A stretch of DNA of 39,300 bases from Oscillospiraceae bacterium (GTDB lineage Bacteria; Bacillota; Clostridia; Oscillospirales; Oscillospiraceae), in assembly GCA_009783555.1 (NCBI GenBank), contig WRDH01000028.1, positions 1 to 39,300 on the forward strand. Reading direction: 5' to 3'. The notes under the pieces are model-generated. The model did not search any database. It was not told the origin of the DNA and saw only the letters and a list, made by a program, of their open reading frames with translations. Shown piece by piece: positions 34,204 through 39,300 of this stretch; the stretch's first letter is position 1; every line of letters starts with the position of its first letter. Position numbers and translations under genes: made by a program.

Positions 34204-35076
34204 ATGAGTGACGATATGAGTTTAGAAAAGGACACACTGGATCTCAAGGTTGTGGCGGAGAGTATTCGCCTTGTAACGCTTCAGACATTCGCCAACATTG
34301 GTTTTGGACATGTCGGGGGTGCAATGTCTATTATTGAAGCTCTTGCAGCCTTATATGGCGGCGAACTAAGAAGCGACCCCAATAACCCGAACATGCCGGA
34401 CAGGGATAGGCTTGTTTTGTCAAAAGGGCACGCCGGACCTGCACTTTATGCAACGCTTTGCTTGCGTGGTTATTTCCCGAAAGAAGTATTGCTCCAACTT
34501 AATCAAGGCGGCGGAAGCCTTCCGAGTCATTGCGACATGCACAAAACAATCGGCATAGACATGACAACAGGTTCTTTGGGGCAAGGAATGTCGACAGCCA
34601 TAGGGCTGGCTCTCGGTAGTCGTTTAAACAATATCAATAACTTCACCTACCTTATCCTCGGCGACGGCGAATGCAATGAAGGACAGGTTTGGGAAGGAGC
34701 AATGTTTGCTGCACACAAAGAAATCGGAAGCCTTATTGCACTAATTGACTGGAATAAACAACAGCTTGACGGATTTACAAAAGACATCATTGATATGGGT
34801 GACATTGCGGAGAAATTCAAGGCATTCGGGTGGCACTCGCAAACAGTTGAAGGGCACGACCCCGGTAAAATCAAGGCGGCAATTGTGGACGCAAAACGGT
34901 ATAAAGACGCACCGAGTGCAATAATTCTGGACACCATAAAAGGTTATGGGTGTAGCTTCGCCGCAGGTATAGCAAGCAACCACCATATGAACTTCACGCC
35001 TGAGGAGATGGAAAAGGCTATAAAAGAAGCGGAAGATAGACTCAAGGAAGTCCGCGATCTTGCCAATAAAGGTTAA
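34204..35076 (+). CDS. tktN: Transketolase, N-terminal subunit
   Basis: A 290-residue thiamine-diphosphate-binding half of a split transketolase. The ThDP/metal motif is GDGECNEGQVWEGA and the conserved GHVGGAMSIIEALAALY and SKGHAGPALYA stretches are visible. With the C subunit 14 bp downstream it would move two-carbon units in the pentose phosphate pathway. The start is uncertain: the ATG at 34204 has AGAGG almost touching it, and the ATG at 34216 has a weak GAGTG at better distance. Confidence 0.93.
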   Translation: MSDDMSLEKDTLDLKVVAESIRLVTLQTFANIGFGHVGGAMSIIEALAALYGGELRSDPNNPNMPDRDRLVLSKGHAGPALYATLCLRGYFPKEVLLQLNQGGGSLPSHCDMHKTIGIDMTTGSLGQGMSTAIGLALGSRLNNINNFTYLILGDGECNEGQVWEGAMFAAHKEIGSLIALIDWNKQQLDGFTKDIIDMGDIAEKFKAFGWHSQTVEGHDPGKIKAAIVDAKRYKDAPSAIILDTIKGYGCSFAAGIASNHHMNFTPEEMEKAIKEAEDRLKEVRDLANKG

Positions 35077-35090
35077 TGGGGGAAAAGTAA

Positions 35091-36056
35091 ATGTTTACAA
35101 TACATGATGTTTTTGAAAAGAACCCTAGGATGATGAGGGAAGTCTATTGTGATACACTCTTGGATCTTGCAATCGGAAATGAAGATATAGTAGCACTCGA
35201 TGCGGATTTAGTAAGTTCGTCGGGTATGAAGCCGTTTTTCCAAAGATTTCCGGACAGGGCTTTTAACTGCGGCGTTGCCGAAGCTAATATGATAGGAGTT
35301 GCAGCAGGATTGTCGGCAATGGGCAAAGTCCCGTTTGCACACACCTTCGGTTGTTTTGCGTCAAGACGTGTTTGCGACCAAATAATGATTTCCGCTGCAT
35401 ACGCAAAACAAAATGTGCGGATAGTCGGTTCAGACCCGGGTGTTACAGCCGCGTATAACGGCGGAACGCATATGCCGTTTGAAGATATGGGCGTTTTGCG
35501 TTCAATACCTGAAATCACATTGATTGAACCTGCTGATAATGTAATCCTTGAAGACATAATCAGGCAACTGGCGAGTCTCTACGGTGTGTTTTATATCCGC
35601 ATGGCGAGGAAAAACGCCGTTTCCATATATCAGGAAGGCTCAAATTTCCATATCGGACGCGGGAATACACTTGTCGATGGCACTGATGTAACAATCTTCG
35701 CCAGCGGCATAATGGTCTATGAAGCACTAAAAGCAGCATCAATTCTACAAACTGATGATATTTCAGCAAGAATCGTTGACATGTTCACATGGAAGCCGAT
35801 AGATTCTGAACTTGTCGATAATTGCGCACGTATCACCGGAGCATTTGTGACTGCAGAAAATCATAATATAATCGGCGGCTTGGGTTCTGCAATTGCAGAA
35901 GCATCAGCGAAAATTCGCCCTGTACCGATAGAAATGGTCGGGGTTAAAGACAGATTCGGACAAGTCGGTACGGAAGACTTCTTACGCGAAGAATATGAAC
36001 TGACTGCGGCAGATATCGTTGCTGCCGCAAAACGCGCAATAGAAAGAAAAGGATAA
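35091..36056 (+). CDS. tktC: Transketolase, C-terminal subunit
   Basis: A 321-residue pyrimidine-binding plus C-terminal half of a split transketolase, with FNCGVAEANMIGVAAGLSAM, FGCFASRRVCDQI, GSDPGVTAAYNGGTHMPFED and the late VTAENHNIIGGLGSAIAE. GGGGGA lies eight bases upstream of the ATG. Split transketolases of this size are common in Clostridia, and the pair assembles into the full enzyme. The larE start follows eight bases later, so lar genes are read from the same message. Confidence 0.93.
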   Translation: MFTIHDVFEKNPRMMREVYCDTLLDLAIGNEDIVALDADLVSSSGMKPFFQRFPDRAFNCGVAEANMIGVAAGLSAMGKVPFAHTFGCFASRRVCDQIMISAAYAKQNVRIVGSDPGVTAAYNGGTHMPFEDMGVLRSIPEITLIEPADNVILEDIIRQLASLYGVFYIRMARKNAVSIYQEGSNFHIGRGNTLVDGTDVTIFASGIMVYEALKAASILQTDDISARIVDMFTWKPIDSELVDNCARITGAFVTAENHNIIGGLGSAIAEASAKIRPVPIEMVGVKDRFGQVGTEDFLREEYELTAADIVAAAKRAIERKG

Positions 36057-36063
36057 GCTAGTT

Positions 36064-36813
36064 TTGCAGTTACAACAGTTTTTTGAAGAGAATCCACGTA
36101 TTGCCATCGCATTTTCCGGCGGCGTGGATTCGTCATATTTGCTTTATGCCGCAAAAGCAGCGGGGGCAGATGTGCATGCATACTATGTTAAGGCAGAATT
36201 CCAACCGCAATTTGAGTTTGAAGAAGCCGTTTATATCGCTAAGCTTCTTGATATTCCTCTGACAGTAGAAACTATGAGTGTATTAAGCGAACCCGATGTT
36301 GTCAGTAACTCGGCAGAGCGTTGTTATCATTGCAAAATGAAAATCCTTGAACGACTTTGGGCGCTGGCTCACGCTGACGGATATACTGTACTATGTGATG
36401 GAACAAATGCTGATGACGACGAATCCGACAGACCCGGAATGAAAGCATTGCGGGAACAAGGTGTTGTGTCGCCATTACGTGATGGAGGTCTTATTAAGAA
36501 TAACATCCGCATTCTATCAAAAAAAGCGGGACTACCCACACATAACAAACCCGCTTATGCATGCCTTGCAACACGAGTTCCGACAGGCACAGCAATAACG
36601 CGGGAATTCCTTACCAAGATAGAACGTGCGGAAGGAGCACTCTTTGAAATGGGCTTTTCCGACTTCCGCGTCCGTCTGATACCACCCGACACAGCGAAAA
36701 TACAAATGCCTGAAAAACAATGGAAAAAAGCAGCCGCAACGCGCGAGAGGATATTTAAAGCACTTGAAAGTGACTTTAGTTCGGTTGTACTGGATATGGA
36801 GTTTAGGAACTAA
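36064..36813 (+). CDS. larE: ATP-dependent sacrificial sulfur transferase LarE
   Basis: A 249-residue PP-loop enzyme that adenylates the P2CMN intermediate and installs sulfur for the nickel-pincer (NPN) cofactor of lactate racemase. The PP-loop is AFSGGVDSS (16-24); RCYHCK lies at 86-91; DGTNADDD at 112-119; and the sulfur-donor cysteine is C167 in YACLATR. Only one cysteine lies in the C-terminal half, which fits the single-Cys sacrificial type and not the Fe-S cluster type of LarE. The start is TTG, with AAAGGA about ten bases upstream inside the end of tktC. Its stop codon touches the edge of a palindromic element. Confidence 0.93.
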   Translation: MQLQQFFEENPRIAIAFSGGVDSSYLLYAAKAAGADVHAYYVKAEFQPQFEFEEAVYIAKLLDIPLTVETMSVLSEPDVVSNSAERCYHCKMKILERLWALAHADGYTVLCDGTNADDDESDRPGMKALREQGVVSPLRDGGLIKNNIRILSKKAGLPTHNKPAYACLATRVPTGTAITREFLTKIERAEGALFEMGFSDFRVRLIPPDTAKIQMPEKQWKKAAATRERIFKALESDFSSVVLDMEFRN

Positions 36814-36923
36814 GGACAACCCCCACCGTCTTCGACGGCACCCCCTTCCACGGAAGGGGGCAAGGATAAAAGAGCCCCCTTCCGTGGAAGGGGGTGATGC
36901 CTACAGGCGGCGGGGGTTGTCCT
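36813..36923. repeat. 111-bp compound palindrome between larE and larB
   Basis: Outer arms AGGACAACCCCC (36813-36824) and GGGGGTTGTCCT (36912-36923) are perfect. Inside, 36841-36860 and 36875-36894 are exact reverse complements, each a hairpin of CCCCCTTC/GAAGGGGG. A further small hairpin CCGTC/GACGG sits at 36826-36838. It begins in the larE stop codon and ends 33 bases before larB. It resembles a dispersed clostridial repeat and could attenuate transcription inside the operon. Confidence 0.85.
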
Positions 36924-36955: not shown

Positions 36956-37198
36956 ATGGAGCAAAAAAAAATATTAGAGTTGCTTAAAAAAGTTAAAAAC
37001 GGTGAGGTTTCACCCGATGAGGCAGTTTTGCAGCTCAAAAAAGATCCTTTCGAGGATGTCGGATATGCAATGATTGACCATCACCGCGGACTGCGTCATG
37101 GTATTAACGAAGTTATATTCGGCGAGGGTAAAACAACCGAACAAATAGTTGGAATAATGAAAACTATGATGGAGCGGGACAGAAAAACATCATGGTGA
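36956..37198 (+). CDS. larB: LarB N-terminal domain (split gene, part 1)
   Basis: An 80-residue frame matching the N-terminal domain of LarB: ILELLKKVKNGEVSPDEAVL, DPFEDVGYAMIDHHRGLRHG, NEVIFGEGKTTEQI. AAAGGA lies just upstream of the ATG. It ends with a TGA at 37196-37198, at the point where the family normally continues into VTRIS. The rest of LarB lies in the -1 frame. A -1 slip at the AAA codon at 37184-37186 (inside A5) would give ...ERDRKNIMVTRIS, which is what the family shows, and a 251-residue product of normal length. As read, this part alone would be made unless slippage, re-initiation or an error in the sequence joins the halves. Confidence 0.85.
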   Translation: MEQKKILELLKKVKNGEVSPDEAVLQLKKDPFEDVGYAMIDHHRGLRHGINEVIFGEGKTTEQIVGIMKTMMERDRKTSW

Positions 37199-37710
37199 CT
37201 CGTATATCTCAAAAAAAAGCAACCAAGGTTCAAAAAGAACTCCCTAACATGTGGTACGACCCTGTTTCCCGTATAGGTATCTGCGAACGTGAACCCGAGC
37301 CTTCACCACATGGTTTGATTGTTATAGCCGCAGCCGGTACAAGCGACATCCCGGTGGCGGAAGAAGCGGCAGTTACCGCAGAAACTCTTGGAAATAAAGT
37401 GGAAAGACTTTATGATGTTGGTGTTGCAGGTCTGCACCGTCTGCTTGGTCATCTTGATGTTATTATGAGAGCACGTGTAGTAGTAGTGGTTGCCGGCATG
37501 GAAGGTGCCTTACCATCCGTAATAGGCGGTCTGGTAGCATGCCCCGTAATTGCGGTTCCTGCAAGCGTAGGCTATGGCGCAAACTTCGGCGGTTTGTCAG
37601 CACTTTTAACTATGCTAAATGCGTGTTCGGGGAATATAAGCGTGGTGAATATAGACAACGGCTTCTGTGGCGGTTATATTTCGAGCTTAATAAACCACAT
37701 CGGGGATTAG
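37192..37710 (+). CDS. larB: LarB PurE-like domain (split gene, part 2)
   Basis: A 172-residue frame with the PurE-like catalytic domain of LarB, which carboxylates nicotinic acid adenine dinucleotide and releases AMP, the first step of NPN synthesis. Motifs: AAAGTSDIPVAEEAAVTAET, YDVGVAGLHRLL, VVVAGMEGALPSVIGGLV, VPASVGYGANFGGLSALLTM, NIDNGFCGGY. The ATG at 37192 overlaps the stop of part 1 as ATGGTGA, allowing coupled re-initiation; the only SD-like element (GGAG, 37171-37174) is 17 bases away. All catalytic-domain motifs are intact, so decay is not evident. Confidence 0.88.
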   Translation: MVTRISQKKATKVQKELPNMWYDPVSRIGICEREPEPSPHGLIVIAAAGTSDIPVAEEAAVTAETLGNKVERLYDVGVAGLHRLLGHLDVIMRARVVVVVAGMEGALPSVIGGLVACPVIAVPASVGYGANFGGLSALLTMLNACSGNISVVNIDNGFCGGYISSLINHIGD

Positions 37711-37732
37711 AGAAACAAGGGAGTAAATATTG

Positions 37733-39031
37733 ATGAAGCTATATCTGCAATGTAATATGGGTGCGTCCGGTAATATGGTTATGGCGGCGCTGTATGAATT
37801 GTTGACTGATAAAACCGGGTTTCATACAAAAATGGAGAAGCTAAACCTGCCGAATGTCAAGATAAAATATAAAGATGTGACCAAATGCGGGATAAAGGGT
37901 ACGCATATTTCTGTTATTGTAGATGGTGTTGAAGAAGAAAGTCAGGATGTTCACAGTCATAATTACACAGGTCAGAATAATCATAATCATGACCACTCGC
38001 ATAAACATAATCCTGATCACGATGATCATTCTCACAAACACTCGCGCTCCCACACCCACGTTGGTAAAAGATATGGGTACAAGGATATTCTTGCATTGAT
38101 TAGCAACCTTGATTTGCCTGATAATGTCAAGGATAGTGCAATTGGTGTATATAAAATTATCGGTGAAGCAGAAGCTAATGTGCATGGCGTTTCACTTGAA
38201 GAAATACATTTTCATGAAGTCGGTTCCATAGATGCAATCGTGGATGTTGTTGGCTGCAGCTTGCTTGTAGATTTGCTTGGCATAACAAGTATCATAGCAT
38301 CTCCTATACATGTCGGCTTTGGCATGATTCGCTGCGAACATGGAGTTTTGCCTGTTCCCGCTCCGGCGACGGCTGAAATACTCGATGGTATACCTATGTA
38401 CAGCGGACAAATCGAGGGAGAGCTTTGTACGCCGACAGGAGCTGCTTTGTTGAAATATTTTTCCGACGAGTTTGGTTCAATGCCTCCGATGACTGTAAGA
38501 AAAATCGGCTATGGAATGGGAACTAAGGACTTTGAAGCGGCAAATTGCCTACGTGCATTTTTGTATGATGATGCCGGGGATGAAACAGATGAACCGTCCC
38601 CGTGTTCCAACTTTGACACGGTCTGCGAAATCTCTTGCAATCTCGATGATATGACGCCTGAAGCTATCGGTGCGGCATTTGAGCTCCTGCTTGAAAATGG
38701 TGCTCTTGATGTTTATACAACTCCAATAATGATGAAAAAAAACCGCCCTGCAGTAATGCTCTCATGCTTATGCACAGAAGGGTTACACAACGATTTGGCG
38801 ATTTTAATGATTAAGCACACAACAACACTCGGAGTGCGCACGGTCAAATATCAACGTATGACAACGAGCCGCACCACCGAAACAATACAGACAAATTACG
38901 GCGACATACGGGTAAAAAAGGCACAAGGATTCGGCATTACCAAACAAAAACCGGAATACGACGACGTACAAAAAGCGGCACGTAAACACGATGTCCCGTT
39001 CCACGCGGTATATGATGAAGTTGTGAAGTAG
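37733..39031 (+). CDS. larC: Nickel-pincer cofactor cyclometallase LarC
   Basis: A 432-residue enzyme that inserts nickel, with CTP, into the pincer nucleotide to finish the NPN cofactor. It opens with KLYLQCNMGASGNMVMAALY, has EEIHFHEVGSIDAIVDVVG, HGVLPVPAPAT, EGELCTPTGAALL and the C-terminal NLDDMTPEAIGAAFELL. A His-rich insert (residues 74-109, 13 His) is a likely nickel-binding store. Unlike Lactobacillus plantarum larC, which needs a programmed frameshift to join LarC1 and LarC2, this gene is one continuous frame. I start at ATG 37733 with AGGGAG nine bases upstream; a TTG one codon earlier is possible. Confidence 0.94.
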   Translation: MKLYLQCNMGASGNMVMAALYELLTDKTGFHTKMEKLNLPNVKIKYKDVTKCGIKGTHISVIVDGVEEESQDVHSHNYTGQNNHNHDHSHKHNPDHDDHSHKHSRSHTHVGKRYGYKDILALISNLDLPDNVKDSAIGVYKIIGEAEANVHGVSLEEIHFHEVGSIDAIVDVVGCSLLVDLLGITSIIASPIHVGFGMIRCEHGVLPVPAPATAEILDGIPMYSGQIEGELCTPTGAALLKYFSDEFGSMPPMTVRKIGYGMGTKDFEAANCLRAFLYDDAGDETDEPSPCSNFDTVCEISCNLDDMTPEAIGAAFELLLENGALDVYTTPIMMKKNRPAVMLSCLCTEGLHNDLAILMIKHTTTLGVRTVKYQRMTTSRTTETIQTNYGDIRVKKAQGFGITKQKPEYDDVQKAARKHDVPFHAVYDEVVK

Positions 39032-39159: not shown

Positions 39160-39240
39160 AGAGGGAACGTCGCCGGTTAATGCGAGGGTGGTTTCACCAG
39201 CATGAGAAATCATGTGGCAGTCGCACCGGGGGTTCCTTTT
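39160..39240 (+). ncRNA. Candidate structured RNA or riboswitch-like leader
   Basis: Nested pairings: AGGGAAC/GTTCCTT (39162-39168 with 39232-39238, one G-U), CCGGT/ACCGG (39173-39177 with 39225-39229), GCGA/TCGC (39182-39185 with 39221-39224). Inside the closed junction are two hairpins, GGTG-GTTT-CACC (39187-39198) and CATGA-GAAA-TCATG (39201-39214), the second with a GNRA tetraloop. I could not match it to a named class; it begins at a good promoter and is followed by a TTTTTTT near 39291. Confidence 0.45.
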
Positions 39241-39300
39241 ACGTTTGCTTACATATTTGCTTACCCTTGAAATAAGTGGCTTTTGGCTTCATTTTTTTAC

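Follow-up and report, generated by a model that had tools for sequence, protein, structure and literature searches.

LarB (NCBIfam NF033503; PDB 7mj0) makes P2CMN in the synthesis of the nickel-pincer nucleotide. In the same pathway, larC of Lactobacillus plantarum is reportedly read by frameshifting; the gene considered here is a different one, larB, and the larC beside it is in one frame. With −1 frameshifting of the dnaX type, the larB locus described below shares an A-rich site and an upstream purine stretch, but it has neither a canonical slip heptamer, nor a significant fold, nor conservation. In a GeneTack survey of prokaryotes (PMC3711429), single frame transitions that fall into no cluster are put down to sequencing error or indel, and the larB locus is likewise a single, unclustered frame change with homology confirming both sides. 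Recoding of a chance homopolymer frameshift mutation is reported for chloroplast atpB (PMC8254509); that case and the present one, as read below, have a chance homopolymer indel in a needed gene in common, but recoding of atpB is reported from experiments, whereas the larB case is known from sequence. No report of larB frameshifting was found in the accessible portions of the open-licence literature.

The window (the whole stretch of DNA that was analysed, 39,300 nucleotides) carries larE (36064–36813; single frame; NCBIfam TIGR00268, 1.8e-71), larB and larC (37730–39031; single frame; TIGR00299, NF052512 and PF01969; with a His-rich loop), all on the forward strand. The larB gene is divided between two overlapping frames. 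Its N-terminal part (36956–37198, 80 aa, ending at a TGA) matches the NCBIfam LarB profile NF033503 at 5e-09, with a score of 36.2 bits that falls below the cut-off of 175, and its catalytic, PurE-like part (37192–37710, 172 aa from the ATG at 37192) matches the same profile at 2.9e-71, with 239.5 bits, above the cut-off. The two frames overlap as ATGGTGA (37192–37198); the frame changes at a run of five A (37183–37187), the likely site of a one-base loss, which is preceded by a GGAG (37171–37174) lying within Met-Glu-Arg codons. In all of this, letters, frames and coordinates were as the original prediction had described them. Together, the two parts cover NF033503 piecewise, the N-terminal part positions 1–37 and the catalytic part positions 40–208 of 209, and they align consecutively with chain residues 5–71 and 78–246 of L. 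plantarum LarB (7mj0). The further claim that the break falls exactly at the domain boundary proved too loose: Pfam AIRC spans residues 43–162 of the catalytic part, so the break precedes the PurE-like domain by more than 40 residues. In a structure model of the intact Sporobacter termitidis LarB (built with a 22-sequence alignment, mean pLDDT 83.6), the break maps to a predicted loop (74–78) between a helix (61–73) and a strand (79–82).

Other larB loci were collected by a protein search of the genome collection, from which the best 80 of 561 candidates were used, and by further searches that took in 60 relatives, 19 genomes from the genus (this one among them) and 400 from the family. The 123 loci compared are L003 to L130 minus the window itself (L083), three weak matches (L102–L104, 28–35% identical) and L101, which in genome G015 matches over 35 residues at 59% identity; L001 and L002 were also left out. 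Some of the 123 are nearly identical to one another, as L009 is to L010. In every one of these other loci (123/123) the N-terminal part lies upstream of, and in frame with, the catalytic part, and none (0/123) shows the frame change. The window copy resembles them in that both of its parts match LarB, most conserved residues are kept and larE and larC are its neighbours, but it differs in that its frame, continuous in all 123, is interrupted. Within the genus, 5 of the 18 other genomes contain a match that covers 168 or more of the 172 query residues with 64–76% identity, each in one open frame of 247–276 aa; the remaining ones comprise G015 with its 35-residue match, G005 and G007 with weak matches (28% identity) and ten without a match. 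Among the matches listed in the family search, the other larB copies have longer open frames than the window copy. One family genome has a larB catalytic match (G346:C113:5343-5852) with one in-frame TGA. Where gene order was compared in ten relatives, larE lay upstream of larB in eight and larC downstream in all ten, and both genes flank larB in the window. Uninterrupted larB in near relatives together with a break unique to one assembly, the outcome that the original prediction had set against itself, is what was found among the loci examined. The frame change is thus seen in one genome only, with both parts homologous to one protein, as in a singleton frame transition.

Since the relatives carry larB whole, a lost base is favoured over a translational device. 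We conclude that the break in larB is very probably an ordinary indel, in which error or recent mutation has removed one base from a short run of A; a base missing from the five-A run would make a single ancestral LarB frame read as two. One-base A loss, which the original prediction had listed last among three options, is the one that the 123 uninterrupted loci support. As to how the base was lost, we infer that a consensus error in the assembly is more likely than a recent mutation, and we give it a somewhat better than even chance of being the cause of the break; a real and recent loss-of-function mutation, in this strain or in part of its population, is a possible but less likely cause. 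Against an error stands the length of the broken run, which is only five A, while an A9 run at 36963 (near the start of the N-terminal part) and an A8 run at 37211 (past the stop of the N-terminal frame) are both unbroken within larB; a homopolymer error model favours longer runs. It also counts against an error that the surveyed part of the genome holds few genuine breaks (two).

The second of these breaks is in plsY. PF02660 matches this genome (G000) only as two parts in different frames (G000:C4:29977-30626, outside the window), and plsY is whole in all 15 other same-genus genomes with a PF02660 match (3 of the 19 genomes have none). As plsY is an essential gene of many Gram-positive bacteria and the sole copy is the broken one, this break points to consensus error, and the larB break may share its cause. 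The loop that holds the plsY break differs in length from relative to relative; the lost letter can therefore not be placed, although the stretch has a T5 run, and the two breaks are not demonstrably of one kind. The frame-break survey covered 1.60 of 2.75 Mb of this genome (58%) and 1.20 of ~2.8 Mb of the same-genus genome G003 (43%), and bears on genes with counterparts in the compared stretches of both. Of the G003 ORFs, 467 had a match in this genome: 342 of these were whole, 122 were neither whole nor split, and 3 were split, namely larB, plsY and one antisense ORF over two real genes, which we take to be era- and recO-like. The reverse comparison gave 501 matched ORFs, of which 362 were whole and 137 neither; the 2 that were split were both antisense ORFs over two genes. 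Because the ORF lists contain antisense ORFs, 467 and 501 exceed the true gene numbers. All three antisense splits were discarded as artefacts, as each lies over two real genes. Two further G003 split rows that appeared at other thresholds were also artefacts: one lies over a tRNA-Leu gene, and the other, a weak one, sets a long ORF of this genome against two separate G003 genes, presumably transketolase-like. Within the stretches compared, the survey thus leaves this genome with two genuine frame breaks and G003 with none, and with just two the assembly is not generally poor.

Residue conservation was examined in both halves. At columns conserved to 90% or more, the window larB keeps 20/20 in the N-terminal part and 71/77 in the catalytic part. 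The cysteine codon at 37624–37626 is also kept; its counterpart in the alignment with 7mj0 is Cys221 of L. plantarum LarB, for which we assume a catalytic role. Of the six departures in the catalytic part, five are shared with at least one intact same-genus copy, the one at residue 164 is shared by none of the five intact copies, and two of the six lie at columns that are invariant in the 22-sequence alignment. The intact same-genus copies themselves vary, with six catalytic departures each in G017 and G006 and 0–1 in the other three. Six departures against 0–1 in three copies, together with residue 164, could hint at a slight relaxation of larB. Decay of the pathway was considered as well. 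It finds no support: larE and larC are each in a single frame, and so is a LarA homologue (420 aa, contig 41; PF09861, 5.0e-14). In these sequences, larB and its pathway show little or no sign of decay. The His-rich loop of LarC occupies residues ~75–112, and LarC of G003 has a longer His/Asp-rich loop. A broken larC in G003 was entertained and rejected, since larC there is in one frame and differs in its longer His-rich loop.

That the break is both real and tolerated, with enough LarB, full-length or in two pieces, reaching the retained LarA homologue through slippage at a low level on the A run or through coupled re-initiation, is improbable; neither recoding nor a LarB in two pieces is likely. 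If true, it would mean that a recoded or split LarB has newly arisen in one species, and that a cofactor enzyme survives a frame break through translation. For want of conservation, structure or run length, canonical −1 frameshifting, re-initiation and transcriptional slippage all went unsupported.

Translation with a −1 slip at the A run (single-site, A-AAA) would give a 251-residue LarB plus a short N-terminal product. Re-pairing at AAA is possible; the N-terminal frame reads AGA-AAA-ACA there, and the GGAG ends 8 bases ahead of the run; retention of most conserved LarB residues and the chloroplast precedent also fit such a slip. The original prediction had remarked that the slip site is not a canonical heptamer, with which we agree: a heptamer of the X-XXY-YYZ form was sought at the larB junction and is absent. 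The GGAG, proposed there as a stimulator like that of dnaX, is no special mark, because a GGAG occurs within 30 bases before the equivalent place in 22 of the 123 unbroken loci and upstream in 1 of the 5 intact same-genus copies (G014, L087 only). In a pseudoknot-free model, the RNA at the junction folds no better than shuffled sequences (z = +0.49 for 37160–37270 and +0.66 for 37189–37260). The A-rich letters at the site differ among the five intact same-genus copies, none of the 123 other loci departs from one frame, and plsY is broken in the same assembly. True frameshifting is thereby left without positive support, and we regard it as very unlikely.

Slightly less credible still is termination at the TGA (37196–37198) followed by re-initiation at the ATG (37192), which would yield a two-subunit LarB. 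A stop/start overlap of seven bases is a usual geometry of coupled genes, and the break lies in a predicted loop. The same ATGGTGA, however, stands unchanged at the same place inside the intact larB of same-genus G003 (L084) and in the unbroken larB of a more distant locus (L034), where it codes for Met-Val-Thr, and an origin as a start and a stop need therefore not be assumed for it. From the sequence comparison, the overlap is best read as coding sequence rather than as an evolved stop-start pair. Furthermore, the GGAG lies 17 bases from the ATG, which is too long a spacing for a usual ribosome-binding site, the break comes well before the PurE-like domain instead of at its edge, and with no split among the 123 loci the co-location of stop and start is not conserved. 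Nothing positive thus speaks for the two-subunit option either.

Slippage of RNA polymerase on the A run, by which some transcripts would regain the frame, has an A run at the frame change in its favour and is the least credible, close to negligible: the run has just five A, compared with nine, the length at which selection against slippage is seen in many genomes (PMC1088944), and neither the A8 run, which comes after the stop of the N-terminal frame, nor the A9 run, which sits near the start of the N-terminal part, could rescue the frame.

If the indel reading of larB holds, it calls for caution, as a stop-start overlap together with an A run can mimic recoding when one assembly is considered by itself; a look at relatives, and at another gene that is broken too, goes most of the way to a decision.

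The surroundings of larB have features of their own. The gap between larE and larB (36813–36923) contains a nested palindrome, with inner arms of 23 nt that are perfect and outer arms of 19 nt at 89%, and its fold has a z of −9.5. The palindrome resembles two copies of a ~50-base repeat placed head to head. Matches to the stretch number 45 across this genome, a figure that includes the stretch itself and counts many places twice, once for each strand. Directly upstream of larE lies a two-gene transketolase (34204–36056; N and C parts in separate ORFs), the C part of which adjoins larE in G003 and G014 also. A DUF3800-VII RNA (Rfam RF02967, 52.1 bits) follows larC at 39162–39243, close to where the window ends.
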